From an uncultured Pontibacter sp. (GTDB lineage Bacteria > Bacteroidota > Bacteroidia > Cytophagales > Hymenobacteraceae), in the NCBI GenBank assembly GCA_947499125.1, contig CANMMP010000002.1:62001-126000 (forward strand): a DNA stretch of 64,000 bases, in the 5' to 3' direction. The translations under genes were made by a program, and so were the position numbers. Below the pieces are notes generated by a model. It was given only the letters and a program-made list of their open reading frames with translations, ran no database searches and was not told the origin of the DNA. Shown one piece after another: positions 639 through 14,501 of the stretch. Within the stretch, counting starts at the first letter, position 1. Every line of letters starts with the position of its first letter.

Positions 639-3035
639 CTATTCTGAACGTAGCGCTTTTACAGGGTCAGTGAGGGCTGCTTTGGTGGCGTGGTAGCTAA
701 CAGTTAACAAAGCTACAACCATAGTTGTAATGCCTGCCAGCGCAAACAATTTCCAGGTAAGTTCTGTGCGGTAAGCAAAGTTCTGTAACCAGTTATCCAT
801 CAGGTACCAGGCAATAGGTATGGCCAGTATAACTGCAATGGAAACCAGCAAAGCGAAATTGCCCGAGATCAGCATAACAATATCTGTTACAGTGCCTCCC
901 ATCACTTTTCGGATGCCAATTTCGCGGGTGCGTTGTTCCGCCATATAAGCTGATAAACCGAACAAACCCAGGCAGGCGATGAGGATGGTGAGGGCTGCGA
1001 AAAAACTAAATATGGTAAGCATCTTTTCTTCAGCCTGGTACTGCATATGGAAACTCTCATCCAGGAAAGTATAATCCATGGGATAGCCAGAGAAGTGTTT
1101 TTGCCAGACATCATCGATGGCAGCCAGGGTTGCAGGTAAAGGTACATTTGCGTGCAGCCGGACAAGTAGTTTTCCAAAATGGGGCTCAAGACGAATAACC
1201 AGCGGCTCGATCTTGCTGTGTAACGAAGTATAATGGTAATCTTTTACCACCCCGATCACGCTGCCATTGGCGGTCTCGTCCAGTGTTGGTTTTATGCGCT
1301 TATCTATAGCATCGGTCCAGCCTAACGCTCTTGCGGCAGCTTCATTCACTATAAACTTATAGTCTTCGTCGGTGCGTATATCTTTATTAAAGCCTCTGCC
1401 AGAGCTTAACTCTATTCCCATCAAAGAAAGGTAATCATAACCGACTCCAATGGTGTTTATGTTCTTCTTGATTAGCTTGTTATCATGTTCTACCAGGTAT
1501 TCGCTGGGTATGGCATCATCGCCAGGCAATTGCTGTGCATTAGATGCATAAAGTACCTGTGGCAACCTGCGGAGTTCCTCTTTAACAGTAGCCAGTTTCT
1601 CTTTTTGTTTTACCCAGCCAATAGATGGAATACGGACAGCCAGCACCTGTTCTTTATTAAACCCCAGATCGGCATTTTTTACGTGCAGCATCTGGCTATA
1701 CACTACAGCAGTGCCTATAACCAGCACCAGCGATACAGTAAATTGCAGCACCACAAGGCCTTTCCGTAACAGCGCATTACCGCCCTTCGGCGTTTGGTTC
1801 GTTTTAAGGACCTGCACCGGATTAAAGCCTGATAAATAGAAGGCCGGGTAACTTCCTGCTGCAATACCTATAAATAAAATGATCGCCAGCAACGCAAGCC
1901 CTAAGCCCGGGTTAAGTATAAATACGGTATTGATATTTTTGCCTGTAACGATGGTGAATAATGGCAGGAAAAGCTCCACTAACATTAAGCCTATTAAAGC
2001 GGCAACTATAGCCAGCAGCATAGACTCGCTTAAAAACTGAAGTACGATCTGGCCGCGGCTGGCCCCCATTGTTTTGCGCATGCCTACTTCTTTTGCCCGT
2101 TTTACAGAGCGTGCCGTTGCCAGATTTATATAGTTAACCGATGCGATAAGAAGTATAAACAAAGCGATAACCCCGAAGATGTAGACATACGTAATATTGC
2201 CAACTTCCCCGACAGGGTATTCCCGCTCATTGTCCAGGTAAGCGTCTGTAATTTTTTGCAGGCTATAGTTTGCGTGCGTTATACCTGCCATCGACTCGCC
2301 GGGAGTTGCCTTGCGTTTATAAAGGTCCTTTATCTTTTCCTGTAGTTGTGTCGCCTGATCGGGGTTGCGGAGCTTTACATACGTATAACCGCCTGCTCCT
2401 TTCCAGTCGGTTACATAATATTCTGTCTGGGAATCGGAGTGGAGTGGAAGTATAGCCCCCGGATCGATGTGGGATGGGTTTTCGGGAGCAATTACCCCGG
2501 TTACCTCAAAGCTTCTGGCAATGTATTTTACTGACCTGCCAAGGGCAACATCAGGCGAACCAAAAAGCTTTGTAGCTAACTCGGCGGTAATAACTATAGA
2601 TGCAGGATTGCTAAGCGCTGTTTTGGGGTTGCCAGCTATAAAGGGAAACTCCAGTACACTGAACAGCGAGCTATCGGCATAAATAATATTATCGACATAA
2701 AAGGCCTGTTCAGTAGTTCTGATGGCATTTTGCCCCATATTTACCAGCACGGTAGCGCTTTCAACTTCGGGGTACTCCTCAGGCAACAATTGGTTTAGCG
2801 GCCCGATTGCTGCAGCCATTTTGATCTGCTGATCTCCATGCTTTACATCACTGACTACCCTGTAAATGCGATCAGCGTTTTTAAAATGCTGGTCGTAGCT
2901 TAGCTCGTGTTGCAGGTACAGAAATATAAGCAAACAGGCTGCTATACCCGTAGACAACCCAACCAGGTTTATAAACGCATATACCTTGTTCCGTTGCAGG
3001 TTGCGGAGCGTAATTAGCAGGTAGTTTTTCAGCAT
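639..3035 (-). CDS. ABC transporter permease, FtsX/MacB type, 798 aa
   Basis: Large Bacteroidota-type permease with two repeated halves. Each half has an extracytoplasmic MacB-like core domain (about residues 45-240 and 470-640) followed by a three-helix FtsX membrane domain (about 285-400 and 680-790). There are also an N-terminal helix at about 20-42 and a linking helix at about 428-450. The conserved cytoplasmic loop motif TREIGIRKVMGG before the last helices is typical of the family and contacts the ATPase. Encoded between a paralogous permease and an ATPase gene, with an HlyD-type adaptor upstream, so it is probably part of an envelope efflux machine. Substrate cannot be read from sequence. 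Confidence 0.93.
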   Translation of the reverse strand: MLKNYLLITLRNLQRNKVYAFINLVGLSTGIAACLLIFLYLQHELSYDQHFKNADRIYRVVSDVKHGDQQIKMAAAIGPLNQLLPEEYPEVESATVLVNMGQNAIRTTEQAFYVDNIIYADSSLFSVLEFPFIAGNPKTALSNPASIVITAELATKLFGSPDVALGRSVKYIARSFEVTGVIAPENPSHIDPGAILPLHSDSQTEYYVTDWKGAGGYTYVKLRNPDQATQLQEKIKDLYKRKATPGESMAGITHANYSLQKITDAYLDNEREYPVGEVGNITYVYIFGVIALFILLIASVNYINLATARSVKRAKEVGMRKTMGASRGQIVLQFLSESMLLAIVAALIGLMLVELFLPLFTIVTGKNINTVFILNPGLGLALLAIILFIGIAAGSYPAFYLSGFNPVQVLKTNQTPKGGNALLRKGLVVLQFTVSLVLVIGTAVVYSQMLHVKNADLGFNKEQVLAVRIPSIGWVKQKEKLATVKEELRRLPQVLYASNAQQLPGDDAIPSEYLVEHDNKLIKKNINTIGVGYDYLSLMGIELSSGRGFNKDIRTDEDYKFIVNEAAARALGWTDAIDKRIKPTLDETANGSVIGVVKDYHYTSLHSKIEPLVIRLEPHFGKLLVRLHANVPLPATLAAIDDVWQKHFSGYPMDYTFLDESFHMQYQAEEKMLTIFSFFAALTILIACLGLFGLSAYMAEQRTREIGIRKVMGGTVTDIVMLISGNFALLVSIAVILAIPIAWYLMDNWLQNFAYRTELTWKLFALAGITTMVVALLTVSYHATKAALTDPVKALRSE

Positions 3036-3115
3036 AGTTCAGGTCAGGTTAAAAGCAGCGCAAGGGTTTATACTTATAGGTTAAGTATAAGGCCATCGTT
3101 AAGTATAAGCTATAT

Positions 3116-3832
3116 TTAGAGTAGTTCAGCAGCATGTTTGCGCACATTCATGTTCTCTGTTACAATCTGACCGTCAAATAAATTAACTATGCGGTGTGCG
3201 TATTCGGCATCGGAAGGGGAGTGGGTTACCATTACTACCGTTGTGCCCTGTTCGTTTAGTTCGCTTAGCAGCGCCATTACTTCTCGGCCGTGTACCGAGT
3301 CGAGGTTACCGGTTGGTTCGTCGGCAAGTATAAGGCTTGGGCTCGAAACTGTGGCACGGGCTATAGCAGCACGCTGCTGCTGACCACCTGATAGCTGCTG
3401 CGGAAAGTGGTTGCGGCGGTGTGCAATTCCCATTCGTTCCATGGCCTCGGTTACGCGCTTCTGTGTTTCTGCTTTGTTAAAACCCAGGTAAGCCAACGGC
3501 AGGCCAATGTTCTCCTCCACGGTCAGCTCATCAATCAGGTTAAAGCTCTGGAATACAAAACCAAGGTTCTCTTTTCTGATGCGGGCGCGCTGGCGTTCGC
3601 TGGCGTAGGCAATGTCCTGGCCCATAAACCTGAAAATACCTGACGAAGGACTGTCGAGGAGGCCAAGTATGTTCAGTAATGTAGATTTACCACAACCTGA
3701 AGGCCCCATTATCGCGACAAATTCGCCCTTTTTTATACTTAAGTCCACGCCAGCAAGGGCCGTGGTTTCAACTGTATCAGTAATGTATTTTTTCTGCAGC
3801 TGCTTTGTTTCGATGATGAGTTCCTGGTTCAT
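3116..3832 (-). CDS. ABC transporter ATP-binding protein, LolD/MacB-like
   Basis: Cytoplasmic ATPase of 238 residues that powers the adjacent FtsX-type permeases. Visible motifs: Walker A GPSGCGKST (about 43-51), Q-loop FQSFN, signature LSGGQQQR (about 143-150), Walker B LILADEP, D-loop and switch histidine in VTHSPSD. This full set indicates an active enzyme. The class usually drives export by mechanotransmission (MacB) or lipoprotein release (LolD). It sits between the adaptor gene and the permease gene, all read leftwards, with an 80 bp gap to the permease. Confidence 0.95.
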   Translation of the reverse strand: MNQELIIETKQLQKKYITDTVETTALAGVDLSIKKGEFVAIMGPSGCGKSTLLNILGLLDSPSSGIFRFMGQDIAYASERQRARIRKENLGFVFQSFNLIDELTVEENIGLPLAYLGFNKAETQKRVTEAMERMGIAHRRNHFPQQLSGGQQQRAAIARATVSSPSLILADEPTGNLDSVHGREVMALLSELNEQGTTVVMVTHSPSDAEYAHRIVNLFDGQIVTENMNVRKHAAELL

Positions 3833-10204: not shown

Positions 10205-11053
10205 ATGAAAAAGATACTTTGCCCAACCGACTTTTCGAATACTGCCGCCAAAGCCCTGGATTATGCTGTGTATATAGCCAAGAAAACGAATGCACATATT
10301 TCGTTGCTGCACGTGGTGCATTTGCCTATAGTTGATACCTCGGAAACGGCTTTAGTTGCCAGCGAATTGTTAGGGGAGCAGCTACGAGATGCCGGCGAAA
10401 AACTGAAAGTTATGGTTAGGCAGATGGAAGAAAGGTACGGCGCGAATGGTGCCGGAGGTTTTACCTGCGATTATATACTGAAAGAAGCCCTTTTGACTGA
10501 TATAGCTGAGCACCTCACCAAAAACGAAGGCTATGAGCTGATCGTGATGGGTACTACCGGGGGCGGAAGCGCCCTGGAAGAATTGCTGATAGGCAGTAAT
10601 ACCGAGGCGATGCTGGAGGAAGTAAAAAGCCCGCTGCTGGCCGTGCCTGCAAAAGCATCTCCCCCTGATTTTACCAAAATTGTATACGCCACCGATTATA
10701 CTCCTGAAGATAAAACTGCGTTGGAGAAAGTGATTGCGTTTGCGGCTATTTTTGGAGCATGCGTAGACCTGGTACATGTCACGAAAGAGGCTACAGTCGA
10801 TAAGACAGTTTCCAGCACTTTTTATGATGAGGTGCAACGAGCAAACCCGGGTACTGAACTATGCCTGAACGAAGTAGTTAGCCGCCATCCGGACGAAGGT
10901 CTAAAAGAGTATTTTGCCCGTGAAAATGCCAGCTTACTAACTGTGCTGAGACGAAAGAAAGGCTTTTTTGCTGAACTGTTTACCCAGCGCCTGGCCGACA
11001 GGCTTACTTACCAGGCCGAAGTGCCGTTGCTTGTCCTTCACGAAACAAAATAA
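10205..11053 (+). CDS. tandem universal stress protein (UspA x2)
   Basis: 282-residue cytoplasmic protein with two Usp domains (about 1-150 and 155-282). The first opens with MKKILCPTDFS and carries the ATP-binding pattern G-x2-G-x9-G-S/T as GTTGGG...IGSN near residues 115-130. The second opens with KIVYATDYTPED but ends FAELFTQRLADRLTYQAEVPLLVLHE and lacks that glycine pattern. So one half probably binds nucleotide and the other is structural. Monocistronic, followed directly by a strong terminator. Confidence 0.92.
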   Translation: MKKILCPTDFSNTAAKALDYAVYIAKKTNAHISLLHVVHLPIVDTSETALVASELLGEQLRDAGEKLKVMVRQMEERYGANGAGGFTCDYILKEALLTDIAEHLTKNEGYELIVMGTTGGGSALEELLIGSNTEAMLEEVKSPLLAVPAKASPPDFTKIVYATDYTPEDKTALEKVIAFAAIFGACVDLVHVTKEATVDKTVSSTFYDEVQRANPGTELCLNEVVSRHPDEGLKEYFARENASLLTVLRRKKGFFAELFTQRLADRLTYQAEVPLLVLHETK

Positions 11054-11078
11054 AAAAAGGCCCTGTAACGGGCCTTTT
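11052..11078. terminator. bidirectional rho-independent terminator
   Basis: AAAAGGCCC and GGGCCTTTT arms (11055-11063 and 11070-11078) close a six-base TGTAAC loop, with T runs on either strand. It begins at the usp stop codon and would also serve the leftward lipoprotein gene ending at 11100. Confidence 0.85.
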
Positions 11079-11099
11079 CTGTTTCATGCTATGCAGGTA

Positions 11100-11507
11100 T
11101 TAATATTCTGCACGAATCAGGTCTTCATCGAAAATGTGGTCTAATTCTTTGCTGCAAACCTGGCAATTATAGCGGCCAAAATGATCGATAGCGCGGGTAA
11201 GCGTTACGTTACGGTAAGTTCCCAGGCATCCTTTCAGCACTTCGCAATCGTTTTTTATATGGAAGATGTCAGAGTAGCCATCATCACAGATCCACACACG
11301 GTTTTTGGCGCTTTGTGCCGGTATAATAAAAAACTCAGGAGCTGGCCTTGGTGTTGTCGTATCAGCAACTGCTACCGGAGCCTGTTCTTCAGGGGTAGTT
11401 TGCTGTTGTGTATTATCTGATGGCTGGCATGCTGCAAGAGATGCTACAAGCAACGCAAAAACTATAAAACGACTGTGGAAGGCGCTCAGAAATTTGTTAA
11501 AGCTCAT
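11100..11507 (-). CDS. lipoprotein with C-terminal Cys/His domain
   Basis: 135-residue predicted lipoprotein: hydrophobic signal then lipobox LAAC, followed by a low-complexity Gln/Thr/Pro linker. The last 60 or so residues form a compact domain with C, H, C, C and a closing CxxC, which aligns without gaps to the C terminus of the neighbouring thermonuclease-like lipoprotein (RVWIC / VLKGC / NVTLTRAI against KVYLC / VLKRC / TVTQAQAI). The frame stays open to a TTG overlapping the upstream stop, but the ATG at 11507 gives a proper signal peptide. Function unknown; the Cys/His pattern suggests zinc or disulfides. Confidence 0.75.
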   Translation of the reverse strand: MSFNKFLSAFHSRFIVFALLVASLAACQPSDNTQQQTTPEEQAPVAVADTTTPRPAPEFFIIPAQSAKNRVWICDDGYSDIFHIKNDCEVLKGCLGTYRNVTLTRAIDHFGRYNCQVCSKELDHIFDEDLIRAEY

Positions 11508-11527
11508 GTATAGATAAAGGATAGTTT

Positions 11528-12385
11528 TCAATTAGGACTACAGGTTTTGTCGGGACGGCGGCCATGCTCACGTATAGCCTGTGCTTGCGTTACTGTTAGC
11601 ATATTGGTTTTACAACGTTTCAGCACGGAGCAATTTTGTGTAAAATGGTATACGGCACTTCCCGAACTATTGCAAAGATACACTTTTCGGGTTGTAGCGC
11701 CGGCAGGTAAAGGTGCATTTTGAGTAGCAGCCTCTTTTTTCTCTTTTTTCAATGCCGCTAACTCCCTTTCATTTTTCCGGAAATCCCAGGGGGCGACTGC
11801 TTTCGGGTCAGACCAAAGGCCGCGTTTAAAGCGGCGCGCATCAGTTTCCAGGTTAGCCAGCTTTACATCTTTCGAGTAATCTTTATAGTGCCAGGCGAAG
11901 CCTTCTTTTATTATTTCTTCGTTCAGGCTGCGGCCATCGGGTAAAATTATAGTGCCAACAGTGCGGCCATAACGGTCTTTGTTGTGCTCTATCAGTCGTA
12001 CAAATTTACCAAATGCCAGGTCTGATGTAAACTGTTTGGAACGCTGCCCAAACGCTTGGTTCTTTTCAGGAGCATCCACACCATACAGCCTTACTTTTAT
12101 GGTTTCGCCGTTACGGAGTAGTTCTATCGTGTCGCCGTCTTTTATAGCTACAACTTTATCGCCGGCTGTGCTGGCTGGTTTTGGCTTATTAGCGTCTGGT
12201 ACTGGCTGTGGAGCAGGCTGAGGTTGTTGCTGTTCGGGTGTTGCGGGAGGTGTGTTGCCGGCACGTTCCTGTATGGTGCGCTGCCTTTCCCGGAACTGTT
12301 CCTGCGCTTTTTCACGGTCGGAGTTGTTGCAGGCCAGTAAGCTAACCAGGCAAAGGTATAAAAACAGCGTTCGGATCATCTGCAT
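11528..12385 (-). CDS. thermonuclease-family lipoprotein with C-terminal Cys/His domain
   Basis: 285-residue lipoprotein (signal ending VSLLAC) with a Pro/Gln-rich linker (about 45-70) and a staphylococcal-nuclease-like domain (about 75-205). Nuclease-fold residues visible: KDGDTIEL, VRLYGVDAPEKNQ with the catalytic Arg, Asp and Glu, and RYGRTVG with the second Arg, so it is probably an active Ca-dependent nuclease outside the cytoplasm. A charged KKEKKE linker leads to a domain at about 232-282 shared with the next gene. Two in-frame ATGs (12385, 12379) are equally possible. Only 20 bp separate it from the downstream lipoprotein. Confidence 0.88.
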   Translation of the reverse strand: MQMIRTLFLYLCLVSLLACNNSDREKAQEQFRERQRTIQERAGNTPPATPEQQQPQPAPQPVPDANKPKPASTAGDKVVAIKDGDTIELLRNGETIKVRLYGVDAPEKNQAFGQRSKQFTSDLAFGKFVRLIEHNKDRYGRTVGTIILPDGRSLNEEIIKEGFAWHYKDYSKDVKLANLETDARRFKRGLWSDPKAVAPWDFRKNERELAALKKEKKEAATQNAPLPAGATTRKVYLCNSSGSAVYHFTQNCSVLKRCKTNMLTVTQAQAIREHGRRPDKTCSPN

Positions 12386-12500
12386 CAGTTTATACTATAA
12401 CTACCGACCTCAAACCTGGTAATTTATACTTAAAACGAAGTGCTTTCAGGTTAAGCGGAGATTTTATACTTGTGTATACTTATCCGGGTGAGGTGTGGTT

Positions 12501-14501
12501 TTATACGAGTTCGGCTGTTTGTAGTGCTGCATTTGTCACAGGCACCGCCTCCGTGATCATCGGAAGCGTAAAGATGAACGTACTGCCTTCCCCTAAAACA
12601 CTTTCCACCCAGATGTGGCCGTGGTTTAATTCCACAAAGTCGCGGCACATGGCAAGGCCCAAACCGCTGCCTCTTTCTTTTGCCGTACCTAAAGTGGTCA
12701 CGCTCTTTACACCAAACAGTTTTTCCTGCTTTTCAGGGCTTATACCTACACCCGTGTCACGCACGATCACCTTAACTGTATCTATGTCCGTAATGGCAGT
12801 TTCTATAGTTACGGTATCGTTCTCGTTACAGAATTTAATAGCGTTCGATACCAGGTTACGAAGTATAAGCTGCACCATATCAGCATCTGCAAAAGCCAGT
12901 GCATCAGGCGTGGTCTGGTTCAGGATAGTGATCTTTTTGCGCTCTGCCTGGGAAGTAAGCAGGTCTATCGTTTCCTGGGCTAACTGGTGTAAATTAAGCT
13001 CAGTTGGGTTGATCTTGATACCTTTCATCTGCGATTTTGCCCATAGCAACAGGTTATCTACTAGCCAAAGTGAGTTCTGCTGTTCTGTTTCAAGGGTTTT
13101 GGCCAGCTGTAAAAACTTTTCTTCGGGGATGCGACCCATCGCCAGTATATGCAACACCGATTTGAGAGATAGCAGCGGCCCGCGCAGGTCATGGGCAACT
13201 ATAGAAAACAGTTTGTCTTTTAACTGGTTCAGCGTTTCGAGTTCTTCTTTTTGCTGCTGTACTTTAAGTGCCTGAGCCGCCAGTGCATTTTTCTGTCGTT
13301 TTATACTTTCGCTATACTTGCTTACTTTTTTGTTTTTGCGGGAAAGCAGCTTATTCAGCCTTTTCATGCGGCGGTTGCCACGGTAAGCAAGCACTACCAC
13401 AGCCAGAGCCAAACTTAGCAGAATGATAGTAGCGTACTGGATGATCGATTTCTGCTCTATCTCTTTTTCATGGATCTCATGCTCGGCCAACAGCATCAGG
13501 TTCTCTTTTTCCTTTTGTGCAGTTTCGTACTTTACCTGGAAGCTGGTGGTCTGGCGGGTTATCTCCTCTGTGTTTATACTATCGCTGTAAGCTACATACA
13601 GATCCAGGTACTCATACGCTTTCTCATAATTTCCGCTTTCGCGGTAAAGCCGTTGCAGCACCTTAGCCGAATTCTTAGCTTCGCTTTTAGAGTTGGTTTT
13701 CTGAGCTATTTCCAGGCTATACTTGCCATACATAAAAGCTTTCTCATAATCCTTAAGTCCGGAATATGTTTCGGCAAGTCCGCGGTAAGCAAAAATACGG
13801 TCGTGCAGGCTGTTGCTTTTTATAGTTAAGGCAAGGCCACGCTGCAGGTAATGCAAAGCATTATCGTACTTCCCCAGTTTCTGGTATACTAAACCGATGT
13901 GAATAAGGCTTACTGTGGTTCCTTTGTTATCGCGGGCTTTTTCTTTAAGTGGCAGGGCTCTCAGGAAGAGGTTCAGGGCAGAATCCAGTTGTTCCTGCTC
14001 CTGGTATAAGCTACCCAGGCTGTTCAGCGACCTGCTTATAGATAGGGTGTCGTTTATAGCTTTGGCAAGATTATAAGACTGGGTGTAGAATGCATGCGCT
14101 TTAGTGAAGTTGCGCTGCATCAAATATATATTGCCAATGTTATTATAGCTCGAGCTTAACCCAAGTGTATCGGCTATGTTTTCTCTTATCTTAAGCGATT
14201 TATAGTAGAAGTCGGTAGCTGTATTGTAGTCGCCGAGGTTGTAGTAACCGGCTCCTGTACTGTTATATGCTCTTGCAAGCAGCGGCTGGTCGTTTATCTG
14301 TTCTGCCAGTTCAACAGCCTCTTTACCAAAAATTACGGCTTGTTTCGGGTTCGAGTACCAGTTTGATTTGCTGAGTTCGCAAAGCTCGAATACCTTATGA
14401 TGCATTGCCGATCTATCCTGCTCAGCAGGTTTCTGAGCTGTGGTCTTTGTGCCGGGCACAAGTACTAACAGCAAGTATTGTAAACACAGAACGGCAATCA
14501 T
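12501..14501 (-). CDS. TPR-containing sensor histidine kinase
   Basis: 666 residues: N-terminal signal/hydrophobic segment, a periplasmic array of about seven tetratricopeptide repeats (about 40-310), one membrane helix (about 352-374), a coiled-coil stretch rich in Lys/Gln/Glu, then HisKA with phosphoacceptor His in SIVAHDLRGPLLSL and a complete HATPase domain (NLVSNAIKF, DTGVGISPEKQE, GSGLGLAMC). The type is common in Bacteroidota, where the TPRs probably bind peptide or protein partners. No response regulator gene lies next to it, so it is an orphan kinase here. Confidence 0.93.
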   Translation of the reverse strand: MIAVLCLQYLLLVLVPGTKTTAQKPAEQDRSAMHHKVFELCELSKSNWYSNPKQAVIFGKEAVELAEQINDQPLLARAYNSTGAGYYNLGDYNTATDFYYKSLKIRENIADTLGLSSSYNNIGNIYLMQRNFTKAHAFYTQSYNLAKAINDTLSISRSLNSLGSLYQEQEQLDSALNLFLRALPLKEKARDNKGTTVSLIHIGLVYQKLGKYDNALHYLQRGLALTIKSNSLHDRIFAYRGLAETYSGLKDYEKAFMYGKYSLEIAQKTNSKSEAKNSAKVLQRLYRESGNYEKAYEYLDLYVAYSDSINTEEITRQTTSFQVKYETAQKEKENLMLLAEHEIHEKEIEQKSIIQYATIILLSLALAVVVLAYRGNRRMKRLNKLLSRKNKKVSKYSESIKRQKNALAAQALKVQQQKEELETLNQLKDKLFSIVAHDLRGPLLSLKSVLHILAMGRIPEEKFLQLAKTLETEQQNSLWLVDNLLLWAKSQMKGIKINPTELNLHQLAQETIDLLTSQAERKKITILNQTTPDALAFADADMVQLILRNLVSNAIKFCNENDTVTIETAITDIDTVKVIVRDTGVGISPEKQEKLFGVKSVTTLGTAKERGSGLGLAMCRDFVELNHGHIWVESVLGEGSTFIFTLPMITEAVPVTNAALQTAELV

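Follow-up and report, generated by a model that had tools for sequence, protein, structure and literature searches.

A Cys/His module shared by a lipid-anchored nuclease and its acidic neighbour in Pontibacter, best explained as a secreted, diverged relative of the Ada zinc-binding domain

Two adjacent genes of an uncultured Pontibacter sp. encode lipoproteins, one of them a nuclease, that end in a similar Cys/His tail, which raises the question of what this shared module is and how it came to lie in both proteins. The genes were examined within a window of 64,000 nucleotides (the whole stretch of DNA analysed), where they lie head to tail on the minus strand. The first (11528..12385) encodes a thermonuclease of 285 residues that consists of a lipobox (SLLAC with Cys19, recognised by eye), an SNase domain, a linker and the C-terminal module. 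Its catalytic domain (residues 97–193; 11807..12097) belongs to Pfam PF00565 (E=2.7e-25), carries the motifs DGDT, RL.GVD.PE and DRYGR, and matches staphylococcal nuclease in structure over 122 residues (VIA-align Z 19.7, rmsd 1.7). The D, R, D, E and R of DGDT, RL.GVD.PE and D.YGR are invariant in 23/23 rows of the SNase alignment A4, for which rows were chosen by the presence of DGDT, and we take these to be the catalytic residues of the S. aureus enzyme. The module covers residues 234–282 (11540..11686), as judged from the tail alignment, alignments A1–A3 and the AF2 model, with C238, H247, C252, C258, D279 and C282 as its characteristic residues. The second gene (11100..11507) encodes a small acidic lipoprotein with the lipobox SLAAC (by eye). 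It probably starts at ATG 11507 (135 residues) rather than at TTG 11531 (143 residues), and the ATG leaves a 20-base gap after the TGA stop of the nuclease gene. Its module (11145..11303), located by a single-sequence search of the genome and by AF2, carries C82, H91, C96, C102, C123 and C126 (numbered from the TTG).

A hairpin resembling an intrinsic terminator follows the small gene on the minus strand (11053..11080; −17 kcal/mol, z −5.67) and can also be read on the plus strand, after the neighbouring plus-strand gene. The order of nuclease, small lipoprotein and an opposite-strand universal-stress-like gene (window 10205-14501) recurs in 11/14 named Pontibacter loci, and in 8/14 the nuclease is preceded by a sensor-kinase-like gene. 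At one Pontibacter locus (L036, G008:C14) the nuclease frame seems broken upstream of the module, which is left in an ORF of only 109 residues.

We initially assessed if the similarity of the two tails is real. The first-pass annotation had described a gap-free C-terminal match over about 49 residues, and this holds: the tails align ungapped over 50 residues (58 in the whole-protein alignment), with 16 identities at the first 49 paired positions. All of the identities it listed were found in the alignment, namely four Cys (C1, C2, C3 and the last), one His, VLKxC, VT, AI and GR, and the last Cys of the small protein does belong to a CxxC (C123, C126), the corresponding element in the nuclease being DxxC (D279, C282). 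As the tails are short (50 residues) and rich in Cys, chance or Cys/His composition might be suspected of producing the match. The local score is 86, and none of 5000 shuffles exceeded 50; masking every Cys lowers it to 49, which is still above the highest of 5000 shuffles (41), so Cys bias does not account for it and the low-complexity concern raised at the outset falls away. Both copies are also retained in 50/50 same-genus genomes listed (this genome included), and relatives of the module occur across the phylum. Composition bias was ruled out on the shuffles, and we regard chance resemblance of either kind as extremely improbable; the two copies are homologous.

The first-pass annotation had not recognised the module as a named family, and this stands at the level of curated cut-offs (Pfam, NCBIfam, PHROG). 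In Pfam, it was unclaimed in both window proteins, with no match to the Ada zinc-binding family PF02805 at E up to 10, and unclaimed again among 37 module rows at E up to 1, where PF02805 was not among the families listed. Nothing convincing for the module was found in NCBIfam with the two window proteins or in PHROGs with the 37 rows, a PDB sequence search with the module alignment A1 gave chance-level matches only (best E 0.21), and a search of the whole genome with PF02805 returned matches elsewhere only, all under the cut-off. Both window proteins fall below the PF02805 cut-off and lack its four-Cys zinc site with the reactive Cys38, each having His in place of Cys38. The same substitution is seen in several proteins that do pass the PF02805 cut-off. 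In the titles and abstract openings searched, no account of this module or of an SNase-Ada tail was found. What needs amending is that the module is widespread and appears to be a distant relative of PF02805.

The relationship to Ada was approached through structure models and profiles. The small module was modelled by AF2 with a mean pLDDT of 87.7 (core blocks ~95), and in the nuclease model it forms three strands and a helix (pLDDT blocks 85–94). The best of 12 Foldseek matches in the PDB was N-Ada bound to DNA (1u8b_A), a weak match (E 1.9, prob 0.23, TMq 0.46). With VIA-align, 1u8b_A alone among 18 chains reached a Z of 2 or more (Z 3.5, rmsd 3.5, 51 residues aligned, chain 22-76), a weak score of a size that may reflect a common arrangement. 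In profile comparison, alignment A3 (75 rows) matched the Ada-type alignment A5, made of 8 Ada rows and 5 His-type rows, at P=7.8e-6 with the module His opposite Ada Cys38; the score was 28.3, where 200/200 column shuffles gave at most 16.4 and the reversed A5 gave P=0.37. A3 also matched 9 small secreted relatives that lack C1 (P=1.1e-9) and 12 SNase-borne Ada-like tails (P=4.2e-8), and the latter matched 8 true Ada rows at P=3.1e-13 over 47 columns. Set directly against the 8 true Ada rows, A3 gave a weak match confined to the C-terminal half (P=2.7e-4), its score of 22.6 exceeding 150/150 shuffles (best 17.4). Calling the module an Ada domain in one step was ruled out, PF02805 and the 8-row Ada profile being insufficient alone; the link to PF02805 is at the superfamily level, by profiles and intermediate sequences, and weak when direct. 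The module is best explained as a secreted, much-diverged relative of the Ada zinc-binding domain. For N-Ada, Cys38 is described as a zinc ligand together with three other Cys and as the acceptor of the methyl group (PMC10814553). With His at this position, methyl transfer by the module is not expected.

The module recurs in Bacteroidota in small secreted proteins, in SNase tails and in other fusions. A single-sequence search of the genome itself found three copies: the two described here and a third elsewhere, in a 93-residue ORF. The third (L003, G000:C1:1256013-1256165) is of the generic small secreted type and has a tRNA-like stretch in its flank (by eye). Family-wide, 87/150 genomes had a match at E<=0.1; of the 63/150 unmatched genomes, in rows ordered by kinship, those listed (20) all belong to other genera. 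In the Pontibacter genomes the pair is in tandem on one strand in 43/50, and 11-12 kb apart on opposite strands in 7/50. At E<=0.01, profiles found matches in 23/296 genomes (A1), 39/395 (A2) and 54/296 (A7, including some of the plain Ada-like kind). Most of the module ORFs that were read out are short (~60-105 residues from stop to stop), and by eye they begin with what resembles a signal peptide. The proposed search for other fusions was productive: the module follows a bacterial SH3 domain in Hymenobacter (L095; PF08239, E=9e-9), follows a long region matching no known family in L100, and precedes a long C-terminal region in L092, and similar tails are borne by SNases of other phyla. Plasmid searches gave 6 records at E<=1, all from Hymenobacter. 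Phage searches gave 5 (best E 0.8), of which one was informative, a Fusobacterium phage protein annotated as Ada metal binding; scanning with this protein found 6 relatives in viral contigs, and none in the genome contigs scanned. The Fusobacterium phage (L113) and five viral contigs (L145-L149) encode a tiny secreted Ada-like protein, and in L113 a CI-type repressor gene lies near it. Seven small secreted Ada-like proteins (L254, L257, L260, L263, L265, L269, L270) carry a second C-terminal Cys/His motif (~KxGxxCKRxT...GxCxQH) after the module, possibly a second zinc knuckle. A module that is unnamed in the libraries searched and common in Bacteroidota as stand-alone secreted proteins now has a plausible identity.

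For nucleases, we surveyed the top 80 among 515 confirmed relatives from named genomes, all retrieved by their SNase part, and judged the tails by eye. A Cys/His tail was recognised in 29/80 and absent in 51/80 (L190 being incomplete). Of the C1/C3 type were 17 Pontibacter/Rufibacter and 2 Aquimarina tails. The remaining 10/29, of the H-x3-C type, came from Desulfobacteraceae and other Deltaproteobacteria, Cloacimonadota, Hydrogenedentes, Armatimonadetes and Hinthialibacteria, one of them degenerate (L198). Eight of these ten were searched against Pfam, and PF02805 was found in 6/8 (E<=1), above the cut-off in 4/8. Elsewhere in Bacteroidota, five further Ada-tailed SNases were found (L256, L261, L266, L267, L268). 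Secreted nucleases of several phyla thus have an Ada-type tail in common.

The residue pattern had been read as suited to zinc binding or disulfides, and at the level of sequence patterns this is borne out for metal and/or disulfide chemistry. In our model, one Zn(II) would be bound by the His, C2 and the terminal CxxC, with DxxC (Pontibacter nucleases) or CxxE (many small Bacteroidota proteins) as variants of the terminal pair, and a C1–C3 disulfide would brace the fold outside the cytoplasm. When metal-ligand conservation was examined, as the first-pass annotation had proposed, it was found for the His, present in 29/29 recognised SNase tails, and only in part for the terminal CxxC, which varies (DxxC, CxxE, CxxG). 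Among 110 motif-selected modules the terminal pair is CxxC in 68/110, DxxC in 23/110 (all Pontibacter nucleases) and CxxE in 19/110, the latter making up 19/39 of the other small copies. In this motif-selected set D replaces Cys (C4) in 23/23 Pontibacter nucleases and 0/13 other module-bearing SNases, and at named loci the residue is D in 14/14 Pontibacter nucleases and C in 3/3 from Rufibacter. The Fusobacterium phage protein and 5/6 of its viral-contig relatives have CxxG, and given these copies and the D and E replacements, zinc is not implied for every copy. That C1, H, C2 and C3 look invariant in A1–A3 is partly an effect of how the rows were extracted, with motifs that require most of these residues. 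A profile without C1 yielded 41 modules, told by eye from 12 chance ORFs and with L272, L273 and L276 left out (L272 and L276 had been fetched with a profile containing C1); C1 and a Cys at C2+6 were both present in 21, both absent in 19 and mixed in 1 (L258, with Cys at C2+6, another at +10 and no C1), and 8 of the 19 with neither have another Cys at C2+5, +7 or +8. As related sequences are not independent events, this pairing of C1 and C3 supports a C1–C3 bond and does not prove it.

The same pattern could be read as an extracytoplasmic, all-disulfide domain without metal, serving as a rigid unit for surface display or protein–protein contact. Most copies do have signal peptides or lipoboxes (by eye), CxxC-type copies have an even number of Cys, and C1 and C3 are gained or lost together with the one exception. 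However, the His kept in every recognised tail would be needless in a disulfide-only domain, Asp (all Pontibacter nucleases of the motif-selected set) or Glu in place of one CxxC Cys fits a metal ligand better than a broken disulfide, and the bridging profiles lead to a known zinc family. We consider the metal-free reading unlikely. The zinc reading is preferred, with the His, C2 and the terminal pair as the likely ligands, and the co-occurrence of C1 and C3 suggests a disulfide between them. If these assignments are right, the Ada metal module has a large branch that is extracytoplasmic and not concerned with repair.

As for how two neighbours came to share the module, duplication and fusion to the nuclease had been proposed. 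The duplication is upheld, and the order of events was probably the reverse. In a tree of 110 rows and 50 columns (unrooted, bootstrap not settled), the 30 Pontibacter small copies group in a single clade (100/100), which lies on the same side as the nuclease tails of Hymenobacteraceae (98/90), with weak support for its sister (81/54). Generic small proteins fall on the other side in 35/39 cases, including the genome's own third copy, and on the nuclease-tail side in 4/39. The nuclease–module fusion also occurs in Rufibacter and other genera of the family, with similar fusions in other phyla, and at 3/3 named Rufibacter loci the nuclease has no small lipoprotein beside it. Because of the fusions in Rufibacter and other phyla, and because the free copies lie on the nuclease-tail side, we place fusion first, followed by duplication and release: the nuclease fusion is probably older, and the small lipoprotein a duplicate released in the Pontibacter lineage. 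The opposite order, with a free module joining the nuclease as the latest step, was set aside in favour of release on the tree and the Rufibacter loci.

The copies differ in charge. Mean core net charge is −1.3 for Pontibacter small modules (n=30, range −4 to +2), +3.0 for Pontibacter nuclease modules (n=23), +5.6 for other nuclease modules (n=13), +4.4 for generic small proteins (n=39, range −1 to +9) and +2.4 for other fusions (n=5); the mature pI is 9.61 for the nuclease and 4.74 for the small lipoprotein. These charges prompt the idea of a partnership and do not prove it. On the lipid-anchored nuclease the module would most likely act as a basic appendage that makes the enzyme more stable and/or keeps nucleic acid close to the SNase active site as DNA or RNA outside the cytoplasm is degraded. 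The small lipoprotein is most likely a tandem duplicate of this tail that was freed in the Pontibacter lineage and became acidic; having turned acidic, it is likelier to be a partner of the nuclease than a binder of nucleic acid. Taken as a whole, the account of a secreted, divergent Ada-type zinc module that forms a basic nuclease tail, with the small lipoprotein as its freed acidic duplicate, is one that we hold with moderate confidence. Within it, the homology of the two copies, the wide distribution, the recurrent fusion to SNases, the near-perfect C1/C3 pairing, the position in the tree and the opposite charges are computed results, whereas zinc, the disulfide, binding of nucleic acid and the partnership are inferred.

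A more specific role can be envisaged, in which the small acidic lipoprotein is a cognate modulator of the neighbouring nuclease (an inhibitor, a chaperone or a DNA-mimic cover). Both genes persist in all of the Pontibacter genomes listed, including the 7 with the genes separated on opposite strands, and the mean charges of the two modules are opposite. In the motif-selected set and at the named loci, the change of C4 to D in the nuclease is likewise particular to Pontibacter. In Aquimarina sp. MMG016 (L225), a tail-less SNase (2435-2935) has a separate gene for a secreted module protein directly behind it on the same strand (2958-3236); in two other Aquimarina (L226, L229) the two are fused. 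However, co-retention within one genus may be ordinary inheritance, acidic charge may be surface adaptation only, and the two Pontibacter-specific changes amount to one event each, so that we consider a modulator doubtful. Slightly more doubtful is the form in which the free copy is a dedicated regulator of the nuclease outside the cytoplasm: as a tail set loose, it would compete with, or cover, the enzyme's basic tail or active-site surface. If true, the enzyme would be under the control of a duplicated copy of the zinc module that it carries itself. The Pontibacter pair poses a testable question: does a detached acidic duplicate regulate its enzyme of origin?

Three known systems offer comparison. 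First, the module resembles PF02805 and the N-Ada of E. coli in ligand order and approximate spacing (C/H-x3/4-C ... CxxC); N-Ada (1u8b) is its best PDB match and the profile links run mainly via intermediates. Unlike Ada, the module is secreted, has His for the methyl-accepting Cys38 and an added C1/C3 pair, and the two window proteins, which are under PF02805 detection, have no AraC or alkyltransferase part. Second, secreted SNases with a PF02805-type tail from Cloacimonadota, Deltaproteobacteria/Desulfobacteraceae and other Bacteroidota have the same layout of an SNase and a C-terminal Ada-like module. These tails are H-x3-C without C1, whereas those of Hymenobacteraceae and Aquimarina have C1/C3 and mostly H-x4-C, and the Pontibacter nucleases have DxxC. 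Third, the window nuclease has the full domain and catalytic motifs of staphylococcal nuclease (thermonuclease, PF00565), from which it differs in being lipid-anchored and in carrying the extra C-terminal module.
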